DNA of 58,034 nucleotides from a virus, in the IMG/VR virus record IMGVR_UViG_3300028800_000107, positions 1 through 58,034 of that record; one strand, given 5' to 3'. Below the pieces are notes generated by a model, which was given only the letters and a program-made list of their open reading frames with translations, did not search any database and was not told the origin of the DNA. Numbering within the stretch: position 1 is the stretch's first letter; each line of letters begins with the position of its first letter. Positions 7,378 to 19,190 of the stretch are shown here, in pieces. Made by a program: the position numbers and the translations under genes.

Positions 7378-8637
7378 TTAGGGCGTGGAATCAGCGACCT
7401 GCACACACCATTCAGGGCGCGGGATGCCAGACCCAAAGAGAATATCCAGCCTATCGATTGGTTGGTCAGTCGAAGGCTCGTAGCACACGAGGCTCCGCAT
7501 ACTCAGCCGGTCATACTCATGACGTGCCGCTGCGATGACGCCCTTTTCATTTGGCGGAATCCACAACGGGGCGACAACGAGAGTGATCGCGTCCGGCGCA
7601 TAGGCGAGATTTTCGCGATAGGTCGTGCTGGCATTTGCGAATGGGGTAATGGTCGCATTCGCAGCAGGGCTTGCCGTGACCGTCTGGTACTGTTGCGGGG
7701 TGTAGGGAAGACCGGCGTAGGGAGTGCTATTCGCCGGGGGGATGATCGGCGGATAGAATTGGATCGTGGTAGCTCCCTGCGCAGCATTGGCCGTTGCAAC
7801 GAACTGGGCAAGCGTACCCAAGCTCGAATAGTTCACCCGGTTAACCGCGTTAACACCGGCAATCGTAAACACGTCGCCAGCATTGATAGTGCCGCCCAAA
7901 GCAGTAACCGTAAGCGTCTGACCGGTCTGCGAAGCGCCCGACACCGTACCGGTCACAAGCGTACCAGTAGTGTGAGAAACGACTGACTGATCTTCAAACA
8001 ACCGGAACTGCAAGGCTTCATACATCATACCGGTGTTGTACTGACGGCTGATGGAATCGACCGGGTTCAACAGACCGCGAAGGGCTTGCTGAATACGAGT
8101 ATCCGAACGGGGAGCAAGGACGCATTTGCGCATACCCATTTCACCGAAGTTCGGAGCCGAGTTTTCCTCCAGCAATGCGCGGGCAAGAGCAATCGGGCCA
8201 TCCGTGATCGGCAGAATGTTGTTGTTTGCGTCCACGTTCGCCGTAATGTTGCGAACCGCCGTGGCCGTGTTGACCATGACCTGAAGCGCAACGTTCGCGG
8301 CCAAGGCATTGACACGCGGAAGCACGATGCGTTCCATGTAGTCATCAATGTCCAAGGTCGTTTCAGCCGAAGTGAAAGCAACGTCAACATGGCGTTGCGT
8401 AGCAACGGTAAGCAAGAACTGCTGTTCCGTGGTGTCCTGGATCGAAATGCCGGGGCCGTCCGTCACGGTATACTGGTTGGCGTAACGAATGCGAAGCTGA
8501 GCGCCGATACGGGCACCTTCGATACCGAACTGACTTTCAAACTGACGTGAGATGTTTTGAATAAAATAATTTGTGTTCAAGAACATGCGAATTGAATAGC
8601 GAGTAATCATACTCGGAGTGAGAATATTATTAGCCAT
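7378..8637 (-). CDS. Major coat protein, P22 gp5-like
   Basis: The 419-aa length is close to P22 coat (430 aa). The N-terminal arm MANNILTPSMITRYSIRMFL and the segment HVDVAFTSAETTLDIDDYME fit the P22-type HK97 fold. Residues about 222-345 form an inserted domain with GDVFTIAGVNAVN, the hallmark of the I-domain insertion of this family. The C-terminus (DILFGSGIPRPEWCVQV) is also typical. The gene is preceded by a 169-nt leader and followed by a strong hairpin. Confidence 0.85.
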   Translation of the reverse strand: MANNILTPSMITRYSIRMFLNTNYFIQNISRQFESQFGIEGARIGAQLRIRYANQYTVTDGPGISIQDTTEQQFLLTVATQRHVDVAFTSAETTLDIDDYMERIVLPRVNALAANVALQVMVNTATAVRNITANVDANNNILPITDGPIALARALLEENSAPNFGEMGMRKCVLAPRSDTRIQQALRGLLNPVDSISRQYNTGMMYEALQFRLFEDQSVVSHTTGTLVTGTVSGASQTGQTLTVTALGGTINAGDVFTIAGVNAVNRVNYSSLGTLAQFVATANAAQGATTIQFYPPIIPPANSTPYAGLPYTPQQYQTVTASPAANATITPFANASTTYRENLAYAPDAITLVVAPLWIPPNEKGVIAAARHEYDRLSMRSLVCYEPSTDQPIDRLDILFGSGIPRPEWCVQVADSTP

Positions 8638-8806: not shown

Positions 8807-9613
8807 TTAACGTTTAGCCGAACGCCGTTTCATCATTTCCTGAAAACCAGCGGTAAAATCATCATCACTCGCATCATCCGTCCGCCAATCGACAACCTTA
8901 CTTGCGCTCGGTTCGACCGGAGGAGCCGGGGGCGGGGCCTTGGAAACTGTTTTCGGGGTAGTTTTAGATACCGGGGGAGACGTGGTGGGAGACGTGGACG
9001 CAGGCGTAACTGGAGTCTTGGCGGTAGCCATTGAAATCCTCGTTAGTTCGGCAATACGCCGAGTAGGGTCCATTTGAACCAGCGCAATTGCACGCTCCGG
9101 CTCCTTTGCAATCTCAGTGAGAAGCTTGTGGGCGTTGGCGCGGTCTACAGCCATGACCTGGGAAACGAATGAGTTGTCATCCGCACCAACGGCATTCAAA
9201 ATGCGAATGGTGTCATTAAAGGCCGGGCCAAAGTCTCTAAGGCCATCCCCGCGCATTGTCTCAACATCGCGAAGGAACAATTTGAAATCAGCCCTGCGGT
9301 CTACATCAGCATCGTCGGAAGTGGGCGGGGCGGGAGGCTGATTATTCCCATTCGCAAGCCGTTCGGCCAAAGCCTTGGCGTCGTTAGCCTCGCGTGAAAG
9401 CCTCGCAATTTCGGCTTCCTGTTCCCGCGATTTAGCCCGAAGACCAGTGACAACCGAGATAGGAACGCGCTGTTCTTGCGGCGGTTCTGGTGGATCAACA
9501 GGCGTCTCTACAGCTTCAACCGGATCAACAACCGGTGCATCTGCCGGAGGATCGACTGGAGCCGGGGTGCCAGCTTCATCAGGTTCTTGCCAAACTGGGG
9601 CGGGCAGTTTCAT
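8807..9613 (-). CDS. Scaffolding protein, P22 gp8-like by position
   Basis: The 268-aa protein is acidic and Pro-rich at the N-terminus. It has a coiled-coil segment (REQEAEIARLSREANDAKAL), a Pro/Thr-rich linker, and a short basic C-terminal helix (GFQEMMKRRSAKR), like the coat-binding tail of P22-type scaffolds. The ATG at 9613 is preferred because GAGG sits 6-9 nt upstream; an in-frame ATG at 9637 would overlap the preceding gene. It lies between portal and coat genes, as expected. Confidence 0.75.
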   Translation of the reverse strand: MKLPAPVWQEPDEAGTPAPVDPPADAPVVDPVEAVETPVDPPEPPQEQRVPISVVTGLRAKSREQEAEIARLSREANDAKALAERLANGNNQPPAPPTSDDADVDRRADFKLFLRDVETMRGDGLRDFGPAFNDTIRILNAVGADDNSFVSQVMAVDRANAHKLLTEIAKEPERAIALVQMDPTRRIAELTRISMATAKTPVTPASTSPTTSPPVSKTTPKTVSKAPPPAPPVEPSASKVVDWRTDDASDDDFTAGFQEMMKRRSAKR

Positions 9614-9620
9614 TTGTACC

Positions 9621-10058
9621 TCAATGCCGCGTTGCAATGTTGTTCATAAGTTTAGCTCTGAGGTTCGGTGTGGTGCCGAACTTCTCGATGATTTTCTTGT
9701 TCTCGAACTTGTCACCGACGAACTGTTGCGTATTGGGGGAAAGCTGAAGCCGGTTGTCGGTTTCTTGTCCCTGCGCCATTTGGGTCTGCAACACCAAGGC
9801 AAGGTGCATCTTGCGAGCGTCTTCCGGTTTAGTCTTTGGATCGGCAAGTTTTTCCGCATACATCTGCCGGACAGCAACTACAAAGGTTTTCCAGTTTGCA
9901 TTGGCGAATTTGTATTCATCCGGCCAGTTCACCCGGAACTTAGCCGAACGGGCCATGCCGTGATATTCACCGGCCACCTTCTTTGCATCCTCGCAAAGCA
10001 TACGGATAAGGCCCATGGCCTCATCTTGGGTGATTTGTTCGCCGTTAATCTCGATCAT
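9621..10058 (-). CDS. Hypothetical head-module protein
   Basis: This 145-aa, mainly helical protein lies between portal and scaffold genes. It includes MIEINGEQITQDEAMGLIRM and WKTFVVAVRQMYAEKLADP, and a Gln-rich C-terminal part. No family is recognised. It could assist portal or scaffold assembly, but only position supports that. Confidence 0.6.
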   Translation of the reverse strand: MIEINGEQITQDEAMGLIRMLCEDAKKVAGEYHGMARSAKFRVNWPDEYKFANANWKTFVVAVRQMYAEKLADPKTKPEDARKMHLALVLQTQMAQGQETDNRLQLSPNTQQFVGDKFENKKIIEKFGTTPNLRAKLMNNIATRH

Positions 10059-10200: not shown

Positions 10201-10490
10201 AGTTTAATATCCGCGCTAATCGTCATGGAATATCCCTGCACTTTAGCGGTTTGTTTATCCAATTCAACTACCCGTTCACTTGAAGCGTTAAGTTTACGCT
10301 GTGTTTCGATCAGTTGAGTATGGACATTCAAGAATAGCTCTTGAAGTTTCTCATATTCGTTTGCTGCGTTCTCAAGTAATTCCCGTGACATTGCAGGAAT
10401 AGATTTAATATCCCTAGCAATTATCCGAATATCGTCAACCGGATTTGTCATTTCTGACAATATATTGTGAGTATCGGCAAACGGGTTCAT
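10197..10490 (-). CDS. Small coiled-coil protein downstream of portal
   Basis: The 97-aa protein is largely one predicted coiled coil (ENAANEYEKLQELFLNVHTQ to ASSERVVELDKQTAKVQG). It overlaps the portal stop by 4 nt, so it is coupled to portal translation. Unknown function; an assembly accessory role would fit the position. Confidence 0.55.
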   Translation of the reverse strand: MNPFADTHNILSEMTNPVDDIRIIARDIKSIPAMSRELLENAANEYEKLQELFLNVHTQLIETQRKLNASSERVVELDKQTAKVQGYSMTISADIKL

Positions 10491-12676
10491 TGGGTGTTTA
10501 CTTGCCCATTCGCCGGGCCTTGCGGACTAAGCTCGGCTTCATTTAGCTGCGAGATCGTATCGTAGATATGCTCATGACCCATGACTAACAATTGATGCTC
10601 CATTTCCGCCTTTTGTTTCGGCGTCAGCATCAATTCAGTCAGGATTTTAAGCTGAGTTTCCATTCTCTTGGTGTCGGCCTCAAAGGCTTGGACGTTTCTA
10701 CGTTCGTCGCGGCCACGTACCTTCAGATTTGCATCCGCAAGCTTTGTCATTAGCTCCGCATTGATAGCTGTAAGCCGTTGGTTTTGCTGTTGAAGTTGCA
10801 CAACCTGCGGCTCCATATTCTCATTGAACAGATAAGGCTTTGTAGCCTTGATTTCCTTTTCCAATCGCTCGGCAATCTTGTCCGCTCCGGGGAAGTCGCC
10901 ATACCTAAAGAGCAGGTCCGAACAAGACGCCGCAATTTCATTATTGCTGCGAAGAATGAGCGACATGGCCGTAAAGGCTTCCTGCCGCTGCGTCGCATAA
11001 GACGGGCCAGGATCGGAAACACATTCGTATTGCCCAATCTTGGGGTTAAATGCGAGTGTAGCCGCCTCCTCGTCGTCCTTTTCCTTCTGCAATTCTTGAA
11101 CAGCATCGGCTTGATCGGGATCAATCTGAAGCCAGCTTTTCTCCCCATCATCACCTTCGATATGTAAAGCGCGTTTGGTATCGTAAATCTTGGGGATCAA
11201 ATCGAGAAGCTGGACGCCGATAAACCTGTCCATATCGGCAAGGTGCTCGACAAAATGATACGTCGAAGTCTCACCCTGTTCCTTACGTTCCCCTAAAGCC
11301 GCGCCGGATTCCGGTAGTTGATTGTCTCTCTGGCCTGTGGATTGCTGCCACTGACCGGAAATCATCATCATCTGCCGTTCGGCGGTCTGTTGTGCCCTTT
11401 CATGGGCTTCGGACGGGGCAGGCGGGGATAACCTTTGAGGCGCATCGATCCGCTGAAGTTCCGTAGGGGCTTCGTCGTCAATGTCGTTATAGAGAATAAC
11501 CGGGAACCCATTGATATTCAGTGTCTTGAACTGTTCCTGACCCTCAATCGCACGGGCCGGAGCAATAAAAGGGGACTTCGGCTGTAATGCTACGATTTCC
11601 ACCGACATCGATGCGTTGTAGTTCAACATCCGTTGAGCATCGATCAAAGGACGCGTATGACCCTTTCTATCCAAGGTGGCGTCAATAACCAACTCTCGCC
11701 CGACACAACGGCAAATCGGAATGTACTTACCGGCCCAATCTCCGCGATCAATGATCTGGTCACCAGCGATTAAAAACCACTCGACTTCATTGTTTGTGAC
11801 TGGACGGGTTTTACCATCGATAACACCGTTTTTAATATCTTCACGAAGCTGCTTGTAGATTTCCTGTCCGCTTTCTTCCTTGATCTCAGAAGCCAGCTTC
11901 TCGACCCAATCATCACTCTCGGACGGCTTGTAGGAAAGCAGCGTGTCCTTGGTATCTTTTTTACGATAATACTTAACAAGGATGATTTCCTTGTCGGACA
12001 TCCAATCGACAAAGCCACTGTCAATCGGTGAAGTGCCTACCTTGTCCTTCCACTTCGGATATTTCTTGTTAAATTCCTTGCGCGGCATACGCTCAAAGAC
12101 AAACCCAAAATTAGCATCCGAACCGTCAGGCTCTCTAATCCATGGGTCTAGATAAACTCCGGTCGGATCGCGAGAGGCTTTGAGGTAAATGTCCTGGTCG
12201 AAAGACTTATCAGAAACATAAGCAGTTTCGATCAGCATATACCCTATGCCGCCGTCTACCTGTTGTTCGCAAACTTTTCTACGTTGCGAACTCCCCTTTG
12301 AAATATATTGAATACGGTCAATTAAGGTCTGCATCACCTGCGCAGACTTGTAGCTCGCCTTCCCTCCAATGGGTCTTACTTTGGCTCCAAACCCATTCTT
12401 CGAGATTGTATTGATAATCAGGTCATTGTGAACGCGGGTATCATTGATTGTGAGGCATGGCATATCGTTGCCATCGCCTGTTCGCTGTTCATAGATTTTA
12501 GTCGGCCACTGCCAGGCATTTCGAGCATCAGCATTGGCAAACTTAATATCTTCGCGTGTTCGCTCGTCCTCGACGCCCTGCCAATCCTTGCACGCCTTCC
12601 AGCGTTCATTGGCCTCTAGAACAATGCCATCATCGCCCTTTGGTAAGGTGTCTTCGTCTGTGCTTCCGAACAGCAT
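10487..12676 (-). CDS. Portal protein, P22 gp1-like
   Basis: The 729-aa length is almost the same as P22 portal (725 aa). Family features include the N-terminal FANADARNAWQWP, PCLTINDTRVHNDLIINTI near residues 75-95, VRPIGG, and DPTGVYLDPWIREPDGSDA near residue 170. A C-terminal helical barrel rich in Gln and Met follows (PQVVQLQQQNQRLTAINAEL). It forms the dodecameric DNA channel and docks the terminase. It starts immediately after the stop of the 50-aa gene linked to terL. Confidence 0.85.
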   Translation of the reverse strand: MLFGSTDEDTLPKGDDGIVLEANERWKACKDWQGVEDERTREDIKFANADARNAWQWPTKIYEQRTGDGNDMPCLTINDTRVHNDLIINTISKNGFGAKVRPIGGKASYKSAQVMQTLIDRIQYISKGSSQRRKVCEQQVDGGIGYMLIETAYVSDKSFDQDIYLKASRDPTGVYLDPWIREPDGSDANFGFVFERMPRKEFNKKYPKWKDKVGTSPIDSGFVDWMSDKEIILVKYYRKKDTKDTLLSYKPSESDDWVEKLASEIKEESGQEIYKQLREDIKNGVIDGKTRPVTNNEVEWFLIAGDQIIDRGDWAGKYIPICRCVGRELVIDATLDRKGHTRPLIDAQRMLNYNASMSVEIVALQPKSPFIAPARAIEGQEQFKTLNINGFPVILYNDIDDEAPTELQRIDAPQRLSPPAPSEAHERAQQTAERQMMMISGQWQQSTGQRDNQLPESGAALGERKEQGETSTYHFVEHLADMDRFIGVQLLDLIPKIYDTKRALHIEGDDGEKSWLQIDPDQADAVQELQKEKDDEEAATLAFNPKIGQYECVSDPGPSYATQRQEAFTAMSLILRSNNEIAASCSDLLFRYGDFPGADKIAERLEKEIKATKPYLFNENMEPQVVQLQQQNQRLTAINAELMTKLADANLKVRGRDERRNVQAFEADTKRMETQLKILTELMLTPKQKAEMEHQLLVMGHEHIYDTISQLNEAELSPQGPANGQVNTQ

Positions 12677-12829
12677 TTACTTTTTGCTCATCCAGCCAGT
12701 GCCGCGATTAGGCGTAACGTCCATGACTTTAGGCTCCGTAATCCTCGCAGCCTTTCTCAAAGCCAGCTTAAATTCATCGGTTTTCCAGCGATCCTCTTTG
12801 ACTTCAACCTTCACCTCTTGGCCATCCAT
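12677..12829 (-). CDS. Small basic protein sharing its C-terminal peptide with TerL
   Basis: The 50-aa protein starts (MDGQEVKVEVKEDRWKTDEF) inside the last codons of terL and ends NRGTGWMSKK, against ERGTGWMAKR at the TerL C-terminus. The codons of the shared peptide differ at most third positions, so the peptide rather than the DNA is conserved. Its stop touches the portal ATG. AGAGGTACAGG upstream could serve as ribosome-binding site. Function unknown; possibly a docking or assembly peptide. Confidence 0.6.
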   Translation of the reverse strand: MDGQEVKVEVKEDRWKTDEFKLALRKAARITEPKVMDVTPNRGTGWMSKK

Positions 12830-14463
12830 CCTGTACCTCTTTCGCCGGGAAGTTGAACATTTGGCCTAATCGGAGTGATTTGAGACGTAATCCGTTGAAA
12901 CTTTTTCATAGCGGCGATAATGCCCTTTTCGCCCTCGGACCATGCCATGACAATCGCATCGCCCTTATCCGGGCTTCGGCCCAGTCTCTCAGGCTTCTTA
13001 AGTTCTTCCTTTAGCTCGATTTGAATACCCCTTGGAGTGAGTTTCCACCTTGGAGCAGTTAAATCCGCCAGAATTTGAGGATCGGGAGGAAGGGCAATCG
13101 GTGAACCGCCATCCTGATCTGGGTCTAGCGCCTCTCTAAACCTCCAATGTACTTCGCTTCGCTTGTTTGCAAATTCAAGTTGCTTGTCTTTCGTTCGTTC
13201 TCCGGAGGAATTGGCCCCATTAAACGGACGCACATTGATGTTGTTGTCGTTCAATCTCTGTTTAGCCGCGCCACCATACCCGCCACCCATGTCCATGACG
13301 ACTACGGCATTATTCCTTCGTACTTCAACTACTAAACCGGCGACGTGAGAACCTGTCGGAGTAAGAATACCGGGTCTTTCAATCAATGGTGCGTACCAGG
13401 GGCCGTGTCGCGGCGCTAGAATCGTCCTGTCTATTCCGCCTTGTGCAACGTCTACCCCAATTGCCGTCATCAAAGCATTATTAGGAGGGCTTTCCGTCCA
13501 TCGCGCCTGTGCAGCCTTCACCCAAGCAGTAGGAACAACCTGCCATTCGTGATCTTCACGACCTACGACAAAATCGCCATTCAAAAGCTGGCTTCTAAGC
13601 GGTTCCGGAAGGGCCTGAAGCTGTGCTTTATACCCCGTATTCGCGAGATAAGGATTGTTCCTCAACAAGGACTGAATAAATGTCCTCGTCTGTGGAAAAA
13701 CCACCTCGGTATTCAAGTCGCCCTGATTAACTTCTTCATCCGTGGCATAGCGCCATTCCAAGGCCCCGGTAAATACAATTGGAGAACCATCTGGAACCCA
13801 AACTGTAGTTCCATCCTTATCGGGCGCGGTTACAGCCCAGCGAAGTTCACCTTGTCTAGCAGGGTTAGAGAATGTCGGATTGATCCAAGGCGCAAACCAT
13901 TCTATCAGCCATTCGCCTTCACCGCCGGTCGGGGGGTTACTAGCAATAATAGCCCTACGTCTTTGCTTAGGATCGACACTTCGCATCCAGCCCATGACAA
14001 AGCGGACTTTTTGCTTTGCTAATTGCGCCCCTTCATCAAACCCGATGAAGTCATGAGGGCGTCCACGCCAGCTTTCTTCCGATCCAGGCTTTTCAAGATG
14101 GCCTAATTCCAGAAGCTTGCCCTCCCTACGGAGGGTCTTGAGGCTTCCATTCCACCCATCGTAACCAGCCAGAGCAATAATGCGGTCTTCAATGCCCCGA
14201 AGGTCCGTGCTTTGCTTGCGAAAAATAACACTGTTCTGGTGGTTATTTAACGCAACACCACAGACCAAATCCGTTTTACCCCCTCCACCTCCTCCGCCAA
14301 ATAGCAGCAAATCGGCTTCGGAATAATAAGCCTGTAACTGCGGTTCATTACGCGGGTCTGGAAGCCAGCAAGATTTCAATTCAGGGGCCAAAAGCCTGTC
14401 TAGTTCTATCTTTTCCTTTTCGCTCAATCCCATAACATAAGCAAAAGGATCGGCAATGTTCAT
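12811..14463 (-). CDS. terL: Terminase large subunit
   Basis: The 550-aa packaging motor has a Walker A loop GGGGGGGKTD at about residues 56-65, a Walker B with catalytic Glu in HDFIGFDEGAQ at about 138-147, and a coupling-type segment AIIASNPPTGG. The RNase H-like nuclease domain starts near GVDVAQGGIDRT (about residue 330). The last catalytic region is near RLGRSPDKGDAIVMAW. The ATG overlaps the stop of a 23-codon frame. It is separated from the small subunit gene by a 4.7-kb cargo block, which is unusual. Confidence 0.9.
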   Translation of the reverse strand: MNIADPFAYVMGLSEKEKIELDRLLAPELKSCWLPDPRNEPQLQAYYSEADLLLFGGGGGGGKTDLVCGVALNNHQNSVIFRKQSTDLRGIEDRIIALAGYDGWNGSLKTLRREGKLLELGHLEKPGSEESWRGRPHDFIGFDEGAQLAKQKVRFVMGWMRSVDPKQRRRAIIASNPPTGGEGEWLIEWFAPWINPTFSNPARQGELRWAVTAPDKDGTTVWVPDGSPIVFTGALEWRYATDEEVNQGDLNTEVVFPQTRTFIQSLLRNNPYLANTGYKAQLQALPEPLRSQLLNGDFVVGREDHEWQVVPTAWVKAAQARWTESPPNNALMTAIGVDVAQGGIDRTILAPRHGPWYAPLIERPGILTPTGSHVAGLVVEVRRNNAVVVMDMGGGYGGAAKQRLNDNNINVRPFNGANSSGERTKDKQLEFANKRSEVHWRFREALDPDQDGGSPIALPPDPQILADLTAPRWKLTPRGIQIELKEELKKPERLGRSPDKGDAIVMAWSEGEKGIIAAMKKFQRITSQITPIRPNVQLPGERGTGWMAKR

Positions 14464-14531
14464 CTAAGTGTCCAAGCCATGATCAGCATCGACGGTGTGC
14501 AGTAGAGCATGAAAGCGTGCCAGATGAGCAT
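14460..14531 (-). CDS. Possible 23-aa hydrophobic coupling peptide
   Basis: A 23-codon frame (begins MLIWHAFMLYC) shares its first base with the upstream stop (TAATG) and its last bases with the terL ATG (ATGA). It is hydrophobic enough to span a membrane. It may be a genuine micro-protein or only a device that passes ribosomes to terL. Confidence 0.3.
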   Translation of the reverse strand: MLIWHAFMLYCTPSMLIMAWTLR

Positions 14532-16390
14532 TAGTTAGCCTGAGTGCTGACTATATTTATAGAATTAATGCCATCTTGCATAGCATTCTCCACGATGAAA
14601 TAATTTCCGTGAACTGTAGCAAAGAATGCGTCCGTAGCAGACACGGATTGCCCGTTTACCGTCACGGTCACGGTCGATCCACTTATGGAAACACTGGAAT
14701 CCTGAAAGGAGCCGTCATTTGGCAGAGAGGTATAATTCAGTGTTGCCAGTGTTGTAAAAACACCATTTACTCTTTTCTGGACAAAAGCGGCAGTTTGTTG
14801 AATTTGAATGTGGATACAATTATCTATTGTTCCTGCGACGTTGTAGACAAGAACAGCAAGCGTGCCGTCGCCGGTACTGCCTGACGATGCCTTAAAATAA
14901 AACTTGTTAGAAATCGTCGCTGGCGGCACCCCGAAATTTTCTTCAAGATAGCTCGTATTGTTTTGATCCTCAACAAACGCCTTGCTTGCAATGTACCCGT
15001 TTGTTGCTGGCGGCAACGGGTAAGTCGCGATAAATGGTCCATAAAAGGCATAGGCTGCGCCGACTGGCGGGTTAGACATAATGCCGGGCAAAGTGTTCGC
15101 TCGGTTGAAGCTATCGTAAAATATAGGCACCGAGATATTGGCTGTCGGAAACCATGTTGCTCTGGCAACATAGCCGCCCCACTGATTGCCGCTAGAATCT
15201 TTCCCTAGTCGTTCAGTCGTTAATCCTGTTGGTTGCGTAACGGCGGATTCAAGAAAGGGGACGCCATTGTTGAGCGTATAACTTGCGAGAGTCCCGGCCC
15301 AAGCCATCGAGACTGAAAAGCTAGTATTATCGGCTACAACAGCTATGGCTCGATCAGATCGAGTAGTGCTGCCGGACACGACTACAAAATGAATAAACCG
15401 CGAGCTATCTCGGTAGATCGTATAACGGTTGTTCTGAGAACCGTCGTCGCGTTGCCATAGAACCTGTGTTCCGGTTCCGACAGGGGTTGTTGCGGTTATT
15501 GTAATTCGAGGTAGTGCTAGAAACGCAGATGAAGTTAAAGAGGTAGCGTCTGCATTGCGTGTGGCGCTGCCGCCAACAGTCGTAATGTACGAGGAAAGCG
15601 GTATCTGTTTTTCTAATTGATATCCACCGAAGTCGGCATTCCCGCTGCCTGCCCCGCCAGCAGGGTAAAACTGTGTGAATAGAGTCGTGTTACTGTTATT
15701 CGTTACGGTGGTGGATACGCGCCAGCCGCCACTAACCGACTGAACCGTTCCTGTACCAGTCGTGTTGAGACTAATTGCCCCAGTAGTGATATTGAAATCA
15801 ATAGTTGAGCTAGCTCCACCGGCAATACCAACAGCCCACCTTGCTGTCTGCCCTCCGGCCTTTGCTGCAACGTAAATAGATGCGCGGTAAGAACCAGTAT
15901 CCGCAGTTATTGTTGTGTTTTTCTGTCTGTCTCCGCCTGCCGATGTTGTTGCTGCTGTGGAATAGAATGTCGTTGATCCATTAGGGCCCACTGTAGCTGA
16001 ATTGGCGATGGAGCAATTTGTAGCTATATTAAAAAATAAAGCGCCCTGCTCGGAAGGAAATCCAAGGTTTGTGCTGGCTGTTTCAATTAAATCGCCAATG
16101 TCGGTTATTCGGTTTGTATTGGCGAAAAACTGATTTAGAAAACCGGATGAAGTGGCAGCGTAAGAATTTGTGGTTTGCGTGCGTGCCGTTGTCAACAATG
16201 ACGTTACAGGTTGATAGCCATTTCCTTGTACCCAACACTCGGAGATCAATATGGCTAATGGACAGTCAACCGCCGCGCCCTTAATAACAATTTCAGGCGA
16301 TCCAGAAAGCAATACGCGCTGATTTGGCGTCAGTGCATGGCTCGGCGCGACCAGCGCAAGGACCGTCGCTAGTGCTGCAAGGAAGCGCAT
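14531..16390 (-). CDS. Exported LamG/CBM-like multi-domain surface protein
   Basis: The 619-aa protein starts at the ATG at 16390 (2 nt after the upstream stop), giving the signal peptide MRFLAALATVLALVAPSHA. Residues about 130-290 form a carbohydrate-binding-like sandwich seen in phage particle proteins (SYRASIYVAAKAGG, SGGWRVSTTV, FGGYQLEK ending SSYIT). Residues 290-430 look like a second concanavalin/LamG sandwich. The C-terminal 190 residues form another beta domain. It probably binds sugar polymers. Whether it is on the virion or exported to the cell envelope is open. Confidence 0.7.
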   Translation of the reverse strand: MRFLAALATVLALVAPSHALTPNQRVLLSGSPEIVIKGAAVDCPLAILISECWVQGNGYQPVTSLLTTARTQTTNSYAATSSGFLNQFFANTNRITDIGDLIETASTNLGFPSEQGALFFNIATNCSIANSATVGPNGSTTFYSTAATTSAGGDRQKNTTITADTGSYRASIYVAAKAGGQTARWAVGIAGGASSTIDFNITTGAISLNTTGTGTVQSVSGGWRVSTTVTNNSNTTLFTQFYPAGGAGSGNADFGGYQLEKQIPLSSYITTVGGSATRNADATSLTSSAFLALPRITITATTPVGTGTQVLWQRDDGSQNNRYTIYRDSSRFIHFVVVSGSTTRSDRAIAVVADNTSFSVSMAWAGTLASYTLNNGVPFLESAVTQPTGLTTERLGKDSSGNQWGGYVARATWFPTANISVPIFYDSFNRANTLPGIMSNPPVGAAYAFYGPFIATYPLPPATNGYIASKAFVEDQNNTSYLEENFGVPPATISNKFYFKASSGSTGDGTLAVLVYNVAGTIDNCIHIQIQQTAAFVQKRVNGVFTTLATLNYTSLPNDGSFQDSSVSISGSTVTVTVNGQSVSATDAFFATVHGNYFIVENAMQDGINSINIVSTQAN

Positions 16391-16391
16391 C

Positions 16392-17183
16392 TTAATTCTG
16401 CGGGCCTGACAGTTGTACACGGACCAACTTGTTTTCGTCTGCCGTATCGGTCGAGACAGTCACGGGACAGACGTAGACGTTCTGGCCCGGCGACGTGTCC
16501 ACATTCTTGTAGTCCCATGTGACGCCTGCAACACTCGCATAAGTATTAGCGTCGCCAGTTGTTGAGGCCGGAGCCGCTGGCGTAATCGAAAACGGCGACG
16601 TGATGAGAAATGCATCGTCGGTGTCGGAGCCTACGAAAGCCACGTTGTCGGTACATGTTGTATTGACGGGATTCTTCTGCCAGATGCGAAGCACAAGCTG
16701 CCCGGTTGAAGCGCCCGTCGATTTCCAATTCAAGTTGGTGATGATTCCGGAGCCACCAGCCGTGCGGGCGATAGCAACCAAGAATAATCCGCCAATTGAC
16801 GTGCCAGCAGCATGCGACGAATTCGCCGGAGTGGCCGTGGCTGAGATGACACCACTATCAAACCCGCCGGAGTTTAGCGTGTTCGTCACAAACGCATTCA
16901 CCCCCGGAACTGTTACTGCTCCCGGCGAAGTTCCATAATTCGATGGTGCACCAAGAGCGCTTCCATCCCAGTTTTTGACGTTAATATCTTGCGTACCACC
17001 TGGGGTGAATGCGCCTGTGACAGGCAACGGAACCGTCGAACTAACGGGCTGGCACCCCCCCAACGGGTTTCTATCCGTTGGGGGATAAGTGACGCATGGC
17101 GCGACTACTTGATCTGGCGTCTGTGCAAACGCGCTGACTTGCAGCCCTAAAAGAAGGGCAATCGCGAGATAAAGTTTTTTCAC
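16392..17183 (-). CDS. Exported beta-rich protein of unknown function
   Basis: The 263-aa protein has a clear signal peptide (MKKLYLAIALLLGLQVSAFA, cleavage before QTPD) and four to five Cys in the mature part (including PCVTYPP, GGCQP, TTCTDN, YVCPV), which could form disulphides after export. The middle contains NLNWKSTGASTGQLVLRIW, typical of phage beta-sandwich surface proteins. It is the first of a pair with the LamG-like gene downstream. Confidence 0.65.
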   Translation of the reverse strand: MKKLYLAIALLLGLQVSAFAQTPDQVVAPCVTYPPTDRNPLGGCQPVSSTVPLPVTGAFTPGGTQDINVKNWDGSALGAPSNYGTSPGAVTVPGVNAFVTNTLNSGGFDSGVISATATPANSSHAAGTSIGGLFLVAIARTAGGSGIITNLNWKSTGASTGQLVLRIWQKNPVNTTCTDNVAFVGSDTDDAFLITSPFSITPAAPASTTGDANTYASVAGVTWDYKNVDTSPGQNVYVCPVTVSTDTADENKLVRVQLSGPQN

Positions 17184-17205
17184 GGGAATTACCTCGCGAT
17201 CACAA

Positions 17206-17424
17206 CTATTTGGGCATTGCCACGTGCTCTTCGACCGGGCTGGAAGGCTTGGTGCCGCCCGGATCGTGATTGCCCTTGGCGTCCGGTTTCTGACCGCCTT
17301 CGCCCTTCTGCGTATTCAAAGCCATCGAACTGCCCATGATACCACGGACGTTGCCGATGTTGTTGCCGCGTTCCATACCGCGCTCTTCGCGGGCTTCGCT
17401 GCGCTCATCACGAGATTCTTTCAC
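17206..17424 (-). CDS. Small disordered hydrophilic protein
   Basis: This 72-aa protein begins at GTG, which overlaps the upstream stop (TAGTG) and has a good AAGGAG 8-9 nt upstream. The N-terminus is Arg/Glu-rich (ESRDERSEAREERGMERG) and the rest is Gly/Pro/Lys-rich. Function unknown. Confidence 0.5.
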   Translation of the reverse strand: MKESRDERSEAREERGMERGNNIGNVRGIMGSSMALNTQKGEGGQKPDAKGNHDPGGTKPSSPVEEHVAMPK

Positions 17425-17623
17425 TATCGTTCTCCTTGTTTGAAGCTCGGTAACATACCGAACGCTCGGTGGTAGTCGGTATTAAATGGATAAATCCCAA
17501 TAGCAGTTTTCAACTCAGTTTCTTTTACCAGGAAATTCTCAGCCCGTTGCCCGGCGCTGAAATGCCACGCCGCTGATAACGTCAGTATACCGTATGCCGT
17601 ACCAATTCCTAGCAGCGTGCCCC
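17424..17623 (-). pseudogene. Out-of-frame C-terminal part of the O-antigen ligase/polymerase
   Basis: This frame continues the membrane protein at 17539-18564 after a one-base shift at the run of four G (plus strand CCCC, 17620-17623). Dropping one G joins FIGAIVAG to TLLGIGTAYGILTLSAAWHF, restoring a last membrane helix and a 50-residue tail, and ends exactly at the next gene's start. It may be a real frameshift mutation, a homopolymer error, or recoding. Confidence 0.6.
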
Positions 17624-18564
17624 GCCACAATAGCCCCGATAAAGGCAGTTCCAGGCATGTGGAAAGGATAGCCAAGCATTGCCTCAATGAGGAGCGCCGA
17701 TAGGACAATCAATTGCTCCCATGAAGCCAAGGCGAAAATCATCAAACCAATAATCAACGCAAGTCCTAGACCAACCGCACCTGTCTCAACCAGCAATTCT
17801 ATAGCGTCGTTATGAGCGTGTTGAACCAGCATATGGGGCAGGGAAGATTTGAACCCGGCTTGGAACGTGCCTATTCCACTCCCGTTAACCGTCACAACCC
17901 TCGTTGCATCGCGCCATGTAGCAAAACGTTCCTGAAGCGGAACAATATTTGTAAAGTCCCGATGCTGCGTCAAAAACAGCAGAGCCACCATACCGGCGAT
18001 CAGTAAGGACATTAGACGGCGATCCAGAAGACCGCCGATCAATGCCGTTGAGACTATAGCTGTTCTCGACTGAGAGAGTATCAGCGTCGGGACTAACCAT
18101 ACGAAGGGGTACCATGAGATTGAAACCATGCCTAGAATTGTTAATGCCGTGAACTCTCCTAACATATTCGGATTATCAAAGGTTCCGAATTGGGCATAGG
18201 TCATCAAGTCTGACCCTAGCCAGTGCCCGGTTACGAGAATGAACGAAATCACTAATCCCAATGCTGACGCGATGTAAAACCGCTCCAGGTTCCCAGTCTC
18301 AAACCCTATGACAAATACCGTAAGCCAGAGGCTTAACTTCAACAGCGCATCAATCGAATCAAGCGGGCTGATCGACCATGCGTAAGTCAGGCAGCACCAC
18401 CCGAAGAACACCGCTAAAGCCGTATGGACTAACGACCATCTAGGCTTCAGCCATAACAGCATGACGGGGCATAGACTAATCACACCCCACTTCGGAATAA
18501 CCGCCGCGTCTGCCAATCCCGGCCAATATGCAGCCGGAACGGCAAACGCGAACAGTTCTAACAT
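17539..18564 (-). CDS. O-antigen ligase/polymerase (Wzy_C/WaaL-like) membrane protein, frameshifted at its 3' end
   Basis: The frame encodes about 341 aa of a multi-spanning membrane protein with the family signatures SRTAIVSTALIGG (about residue 165) and the periplasmic-loop motif HAHNDAIELLVETGAVGLG (about residue 255). Known members join or polymerise O-antigen sugars at the inner membrane. ATG 18564 is chosen because it overlaps the upstream stop (TAATG); a GTG at 18579 is the alternative. The last 27 residues of this frame look non-native. With one base removed near 17620 the protein would be 379 aa. A phage copy could change the host surface after infection. Confidence 0.75.
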   Translation of the reverse strand: MLELFAFAVPAAYWPGLADAAVIPKWGVISLCPVMLLWLKPRWSLVHTALAVFFGWCCLTYAWSISPLDSIDALLKLSLWLTVFVIGFETGNLERFYIASALGLVISFILVTGHWLGSDLMTYAQFGTFDNPNMLGEFTALTILGMVSISWYPFVWLVPTLILSQSRTAIVSTALIGGLLDRRLMSLLIAGMVALLFLTQHRDFTNIVPLQERFATWRDATRVVTVNGSGIGTFQAGFKSSLPHMLVQHAHNDAIELLVETGAVGLGLALIIGLMIFALASWEQLIVLSALLIEAMLGYPFHMPGTAFIGAIVAGHAARNWYGIRYTDVISGVAFQRRATG

Positions 18565-19190
18565 TAGATGCGGAACCACGTAGCCAGAGCGGCATCATAG
18601 ATGAAACCAGCCACGCCACCAGCAGTCGCGGAGGTCGGAGCATTTGAAACCGTCTGACCCGCCGCACCGCTAATAGTCAACGTCGATACGGTTTGAGTAG
18701 ACGAAATGCGAACCTGCTGACCATCAATTGGCGTCGATGGCAACGTGAGCGTCAATGTTGAATAAGTCGTAGTGCCACCGATGATGTAGTAGCAGACCTG
18801 ATTGGCAATCGTCGCGGTTGAAGCGTTCGGGCTGAGAATGGCATACGAACCACCCGCAATCTGGCAGGTCGTCACCACCGCACTGGACGGGCTAGCACCG
18901 CCAGCCAAACCAGTATCAACCGGGAATTTCTCAGCACCCGTCAGCGACGGAGGACCAGCCGGAACAGTCTGAGCGCAAATCGATGAACCCGTGCCCTGAG
19001 TAGAGCCAGGAACCAGACCATACGGACCCTGCGTACTCGGCAAGCTCGTACCGCTAACCGTCGATGCGCAAAATGAAGCACCGCCAATGATCGGCAGCGT
19101 CGTCCACAAGCCAGCCGCATAGGCTACCGTGGTGTAAACGATGGCCGCTAGAAAACTACCGGCAATCAAACCCTTATAGGTTCGTGTCAT
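18564..19190 (-). CDS. Exported decoration-type protein (signal peptide)
   Basis: The 208-aa protein has a signal sequence (core GLIAGSFLAAIVYTTVAYA) and a low-complexity Gly/Ser/Thr/Ala mature part. The C-terminal module (LTLTLPSTPIDGQQVRIS, then VSTLTISGAAG and a final AALATWFRI) resembles that of 3895-4359 and of the fibre at 49740-52277. AAGGAG lies 7-8 nt before the ATG. Likely a surface or virion decoration protein. Confidence 0.65.
   Translation of the reverse strand: MTRTYKGLIAGSFLAAIVYTTVAYAAGLWTTLPIIGGASFCASTVSGTSLPSTQGPYGLVPGSTQGTGSSICAQTVPAGPPSLTGAEKFPVDTGLAGGASPSSAVVTTCQIAGGSYAILSPNASTATIANQVCYYIIGGTTTYSTLTLTLPSTPIDGQQVRISSTQTVSTLTISGAAGQTVSNAPTSATAGGVAGFIYDAALATWFRI

Follow-up and report, generated by a model that had tools for sequence, protein, structure and literature searches.

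A C-terminal tryptophan peptide of TerL that follows P22-like portals and is copied in a small adjacent protein

The terminase large subunit, TerL, and a 50-residue protein encoded beside it end in nearly the same peptide in the viral DNA described here (IMG/VR record IMGVR_UViG_3300028800_000107, 58,034 nucleotides, referred to throughout as the window). From sequence comparisons, we consider it reasonably probable that this tail, which in its broader form is a terminal W-[ML], is a portal-docking motif of TerL, and that the small protein is an accessory that mimics it.

The features of the locus are listed in Table 1. The genes are found on the minus strand in the order TerL, 50-residue ORF, portal, and the preliminary description had correctly placed the first two at 12677–14463. 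TerL and the small ORF overlap by 19 nt, the portal ORF begins directly after the small ORF, and the portal is clearly P22-like, since it scores 418 bits against Pfam PF16510 (P22_portal), for which the curated cut-off is 26.1; it also matches the P22 portal structure (PDB 3lj5) at 9.8e-11. No terminase small subunit (TerS) was recognised beside TerL in the window, at 14531–19190 (−). A tail-like protein (phrog_5939) was found in this region, and a weak match to an O-antigen ligase (Wzy_C), below the cut-off, is located at 17539–18579. The codons GAA AGA GGT of the TerL tail (12811–12843 (−)) resemble a ribosome binding site placed just 5′ of the small-ORF ATG. This stretch is absent in L002, L003, and L165, which have TAATG or TGATG overlaps instead.

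Table 1. Features of the TerL–portal locus in the window.
Feature	Position	Strand	Basis
TerL (550 aa), "TerL1" family	12811–14463	−	PHROG phrog_2; Pfam Terminase_6N; AlphaFold2 model
C-terminal tail of TerL, ERGTGWMAKR, proposed portal-docking motif	12814–12843	−	conserved in relatives; low pLDDT
Small protein, 50 aa (MDGQEVKVEVKEDRWKTDEFKLALRKAARITEPKVMDVTPNRGTGWMSKK), of a family with RW, a middle segment and PNRGxGWM as tail	12677–12829	−	no PHROG or Pfam match
Tail of the small protein, NRGTGWMSKK, copy of the TerL tail	12680–12709	−	sequence match, codon comparison
P22-like portal, 729 aa, proposed docking partner	10487–12676	−	Pfam PF16510, 8e-125; phrog_156; PDB 3lj5
Major head protein	7378–8637		phrog_283
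Scaffold	8807–9637		phrog_8865

The tails of TerL and the small protein are identical at seven of their ten terminal residues. The C-terminal decapeptides of all window ORFs of at least 40 aa (442 ORFs) were compared, and this pair was the single best of 97,461; the composition-based chance of such a match is 1.2e-7 for one pair. On the ranking and the probability together, a chance origin is rejected. All five of the shared residues that have degenerate codons are coded differently in the window (TerL/small protein: R AGA/CGC, G GGT/GGC, T ACA/ACT, G GGA/GGC, K AAG/AAA), and when seven phages are pooled the two tails differ at 22 of 33 such codons. Recent duplication of the DNA is rejected, given that the shared codons mostly differ. 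The preliminary description had reported the common peptide and its divergent synonymous codons, and had proposed that the peptide is kept by selection on the protein; all of this was borne out, and in relatives, too, the peptide is seen on TerL as well as on the small protein.

An AlphaFold2 model of TerL was built from an alignment of 53 sequences (pLDDT 90.6, pTM 0.70). It matches the structures of Sf6 gp2 and E217 TerL, with Z of about 20, and also aligns with the D6E and P74-26 terminases. The matches to TerL structures in the PDB stop at about residues 511–523, the last helix spans residues 499–529, and residues 533–550, which include GTGWM, are mostly below pLDDT 50. The tail is thus predicted to be disordered and to lie beyond the nuclease domain; in this predicted structure it occupies the flexible, extreme C-terminal position that is characteristic of docking tails of the P22, T3, and lambda type. 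In TerL relatives from IMG/VR (61–81% identity) the tail is kept, with G545 and W546 invariant, while the linker that precedes it is hypervariable. The consensus of the tail is [LM]PxERGxGWM followed by basic residues.

When the TerL tail was searched for as a DNA pattern, the same tail turned up on a second TerL family, designated TerL2 (L165, L187, L162/L178, L217, and others). The cores of TerL1 and TerL2 give no significant match to each other by blastp or hhalign. Their only similarity is in the N-terminal 29 or so residues (E 7e-6) and, by blastp, in the tail, whereas the portals encoded behind both types are mostly 62–79% identical to the window portal. Phages thus seem to have exchanged their motor cores, with tail and portal staying together. 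The N-terminal similarity consists of a peptide DPxAYIASLSxxxKAxLDxLLAPEL (TerL residues 3–31, window 14371–14457 (−)). Both ends of the protein are therefore kept while the motor core differs, and the N-terminal peptide may be a second docking segment.

The type of tail was compared with the type of portal. Portals were typed with an HMM of the window's portal group, extended with members confirmed by Pfam; the portals of L259 and L261 are P22-like by Pfam. Over both families, tryptophan occurs within the last six residues of TerL in 59 of 60 cases with a P22-like portal, against 15 of 119 with other portals. The counts are 27/28 against 10/90 for TerL1, and 32/32 against 5/29 for TerL2, noting that a Fisher test on such counts ignores phylogeny. 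On a tree of TerL1 cores the portal label changes six times, and among five independent pairs the tail changes together with the portal in four and in the opposite sense in none (sign test p 0.125, too few pairs to be significant alone); the TerL2 pairs were uninformative. Even so, lone members such as L026 and L035 have a P22-like portal and a tryptophan tail amid relatives that have neither. An exception is presented by TerLs of the L069/L072 type, which end GAWMTLL or GSWMTLLQ and thus carry a W[ML] tail with an unlike portal, that of L072 being PF04860.

Known phages follow the same pattern. All 11 of those checked that have the window's portal lineage (PAE2, DSL-LC05, phiAX1, ctNMl277, P26218, VvAW1, 1.183.O, PBR31, EBPR1, CV-1-33, and BA3) have a TerL ending in W[ML]x0-2. 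Their portals are 26–38% identical to the window portal, and their TerLs belong to Terminase_3, to Terminase_6, or to no Pfam family. No tryptophan tail was found in P22, Kosakonia phage Kc166B, or Acidovorax phage AP1, whose PF16510 portals are diverged. It is therefore one lineage of portals, and not the whole Pfam family, that the motif marks. A different shared tail, [YH]DPY, ends the TerL homologues L229, L230, L232, and L234 (DC33, BPP-1, 4316, and RapA). The portal in these phages is Head-tail_con (PF12236), as checked for DC33, BPP-1, and 4316, suggesting another portal-specific tail.

The small ORF is complete in seven phages, namely the window, L002, L003, and L012, which have TerL1, and L165, L162, and L187, which have TerL2; a partial copy is present in L164. 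Wherever the contig extends far enough to show the neighbour, the copy adjoins a portal of the P22-like type. Overall identity to the window copy is 34–38%, with divergent bodies, in which R14, W15, A23, D37, PNRG, and WM are invariant. None of the seven complete copies has a broken reading frame. In pairwise comparisons dN is less than dS (for L002/L003, 0.29 and 0.83 respectively), so that the small protein behaves as a translated and selected gene. The two tails retain separate signatures in all seven phages, PNRG in the small protein and [ED]RG in TerL. Within a genome they nevertheless agree at variable sites, the residue after WMx being K/K, R/R, G/G, and so on, and the tails paired as they occur match better than 99.2% of re-pairings; near relatives are included in this comparison, and the matching within genomes is therefore suggestive only.

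The small protein was found at seven of about 57 TerL–portal junctions inspected, and is therefore accessory and dispensable for the clade. L004, L005, and L007 have no small ORF, and their portal gene begins at the stop codon of TerL. The preliminary description had named absence of the paired motif from relatives as evidence against its proposal: six relatives have the pair, although most do not. The pattern PNRGx[GN]WM occurs in just 13 stretches of IMG/VR, and eight of these are confirmed family members. IMG/VR was scanned twice by alignment and once with a DNA pattern, which returned only these loci. There was no match in cultured phages at E 10. There was also none in Pfam or PHROG; at 50 aa the protein would be short for a TerS. 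The junction itself (window 12677–12829) looks like an insertion hotspot, with unrelated genes in L225, L227, L244, L246, L255, L256, and L011. Judged by eye, these include genes for a zinc-ribbon-like protein and for a membrane peptide, together with one resembling a DNA methyltransferase.

That TerL tails can be portal-binding elements is already known. P22 TerL lacking residues 483–499 does not bind the procapsid form of the portal (PMC5290284). The last residues of the lambda gpA C-terminus (Aam42) are needed for prohead binding (PMC4856287), and the same is stated for the T3 gp19 C-terminus in work cited in PMC5290284. The P22 protein (gp2) likewise has a C-terminal tail and a portal homologous to that of the window (PF16510; PDB 3lj5), but its tail is basic and proline-rich (KIPAPIRPVRRGR) and lacks W-M, whereas the window TerL ends GERGTGWMAKR and does not have the tail of P22 proper (lederbergvirus type). 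We know of no small protein in P22 with a copied TerL tail. Lambda gpA and T3 gp19 belong to other TerL families and work with other portals, and to our knowledge neither phage has a TerL-tail mimic.

Two other accessory proteins bear some resemblance to the small protein. The P22 tail accessory factor gp4 uses an extended C-terminal tail to bind the portal (PMC5290284), but it is larger, has its own domain, and attaches to the portal at its lateral bottom, and no copy of a TerL tail is described for it. The lambda packaging chaperone gpFI is likewise a small accessory that helps terminase to meet the prohead (PMC4856287), but it is proposed to act from the coat lattice via non-specific DNA binding, and no shared tail is described. 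A literature search for a terminal-tryptophan motif, a W-[ML] tail code, or a TerL-tail mimic, with subscription papers mostly outside its reach, found nothing relevant.

The association with the portal could arise if the shared tail binds some other P22-type head protein (coat, scaffold, or TerS) and accompanies the portal only through gene linkage, the small protein then being, for example, an accessory of scaffold or TerS. Coat and scaffold genes do adjoin the portal, both in the window and in known relatives. However, it is the portal or prohead that the TerL C-terminus binds in P22, T3, and lambda (PMC5290284, PMC4856287), and we regard this explanation as unlikely. It is also conceivable that TerL or TerS is the partner of the small protein, which would regulate the motor by imitating an auto-inhibitory contact of the tail inside the terminase, given that a copy of the tail could compete for any site that the TerL tail occupies, even one on TerL. 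This is quite improbable, since the tail is common to two dissimilar TerL cores and yet follows the type of portal.

The small ORF might otherwise have come from gene insertion at the junction, as a copy of the 3′ end of terL that is now worn and has no function. The many unrelated genes inserted there in relatives would fit this, as would the layout of the ORF (body, linker, tail), which loosely resembles the end of TerL. Set against it are dN/dS below 1, residues that are invariant over divergent bodies, the distinct PNRG and [ED]RG signatures, differences at most of the shared degenerate codons, and the intact frame in all seven complete copies, and together these make it very doubtful.

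The preliminary description also raised the possibility of a −1 frameshift, giving a TerL with the second tail. In all seven phages the small ORF is indeed in the −1 frame relative to TerL, because of an ordinary overlapping start (GGA TGG ATG contains ATG GAT) or a stop–start overlap (TAATG, TGATG, or GTGA, the last type being used in L162). The overlap is short and variable, the −1 frame being open for only 31–118 nt before the TerL stop, and six of the seven phages, including the window, have no in-register slippery heptamer within it; the sole example, in L012, is 118 nt upstream. A programmed frameshift yielding a minority of TerL with the second tail is therefore barely credible.

We return to the docking motif. 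The preliminary description had suggested a docking tail for the portal or procapsid, and everything found here points to a docking tail specific to the P22-like head module, most likely to the portal; its idea that the small protein could be a competitor or cofactor would also fit. By analogy with P22, the W-[ML] tail would be the portal-docking peptide of this portal lineage: a short linear motif on a flexible extension of TerL beyond the nuclease domain. This motif would engage the P22-type head module, with the clip of the dodecameric portal as the most likely site. The junction protein, of 50–70 aa, would be an accessory in which a short RW-containing module bears a copy of the motif (PNRGxGWM). 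This protein and TerL probably dock on one and the same portal ring, because the shared peptide tracks the type of ring, and because the peptide is found on an independent short module the small protein may bind the same pocket, as a small competitor or placeholder. We infer physical binding to the portal, a common pocket for the two tails, and a regulatory role.

The portal ring has 12 subunits and there are about five TerL subunits, so that docking sites are left free. The small protein could hold free pockets until TerL arrives, could help to displace TerL once packaging ends, or could tether another factor. A fuller reading combines two proposals, that the small protein is a dedicated mimic of the TerL tail that fills portal docking sites and so controls assembly or release of the motor, and that the C-terminal peptides of TerLs amount to a portal-specific code for docking, through which phages can swap whole motor cores while the tail is kept. 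We put this combination forward tentatively, its prospects being somewhat poorer than even.

What is known of how terminase recognises its portal comes from a few deletion studies, and model phages differ in their contact residues. A W-[ML] tail found on dissimilar cores and with one portal lineage offers a peptide of defined sequence with a likely partner, and W546A is an easy mutation by which to test it. The shared tail suggests how phages can exchange motor cores, and a natural mini-protein bearing this peptide would be at hand as a competitor in motor docking or as a probe of it.
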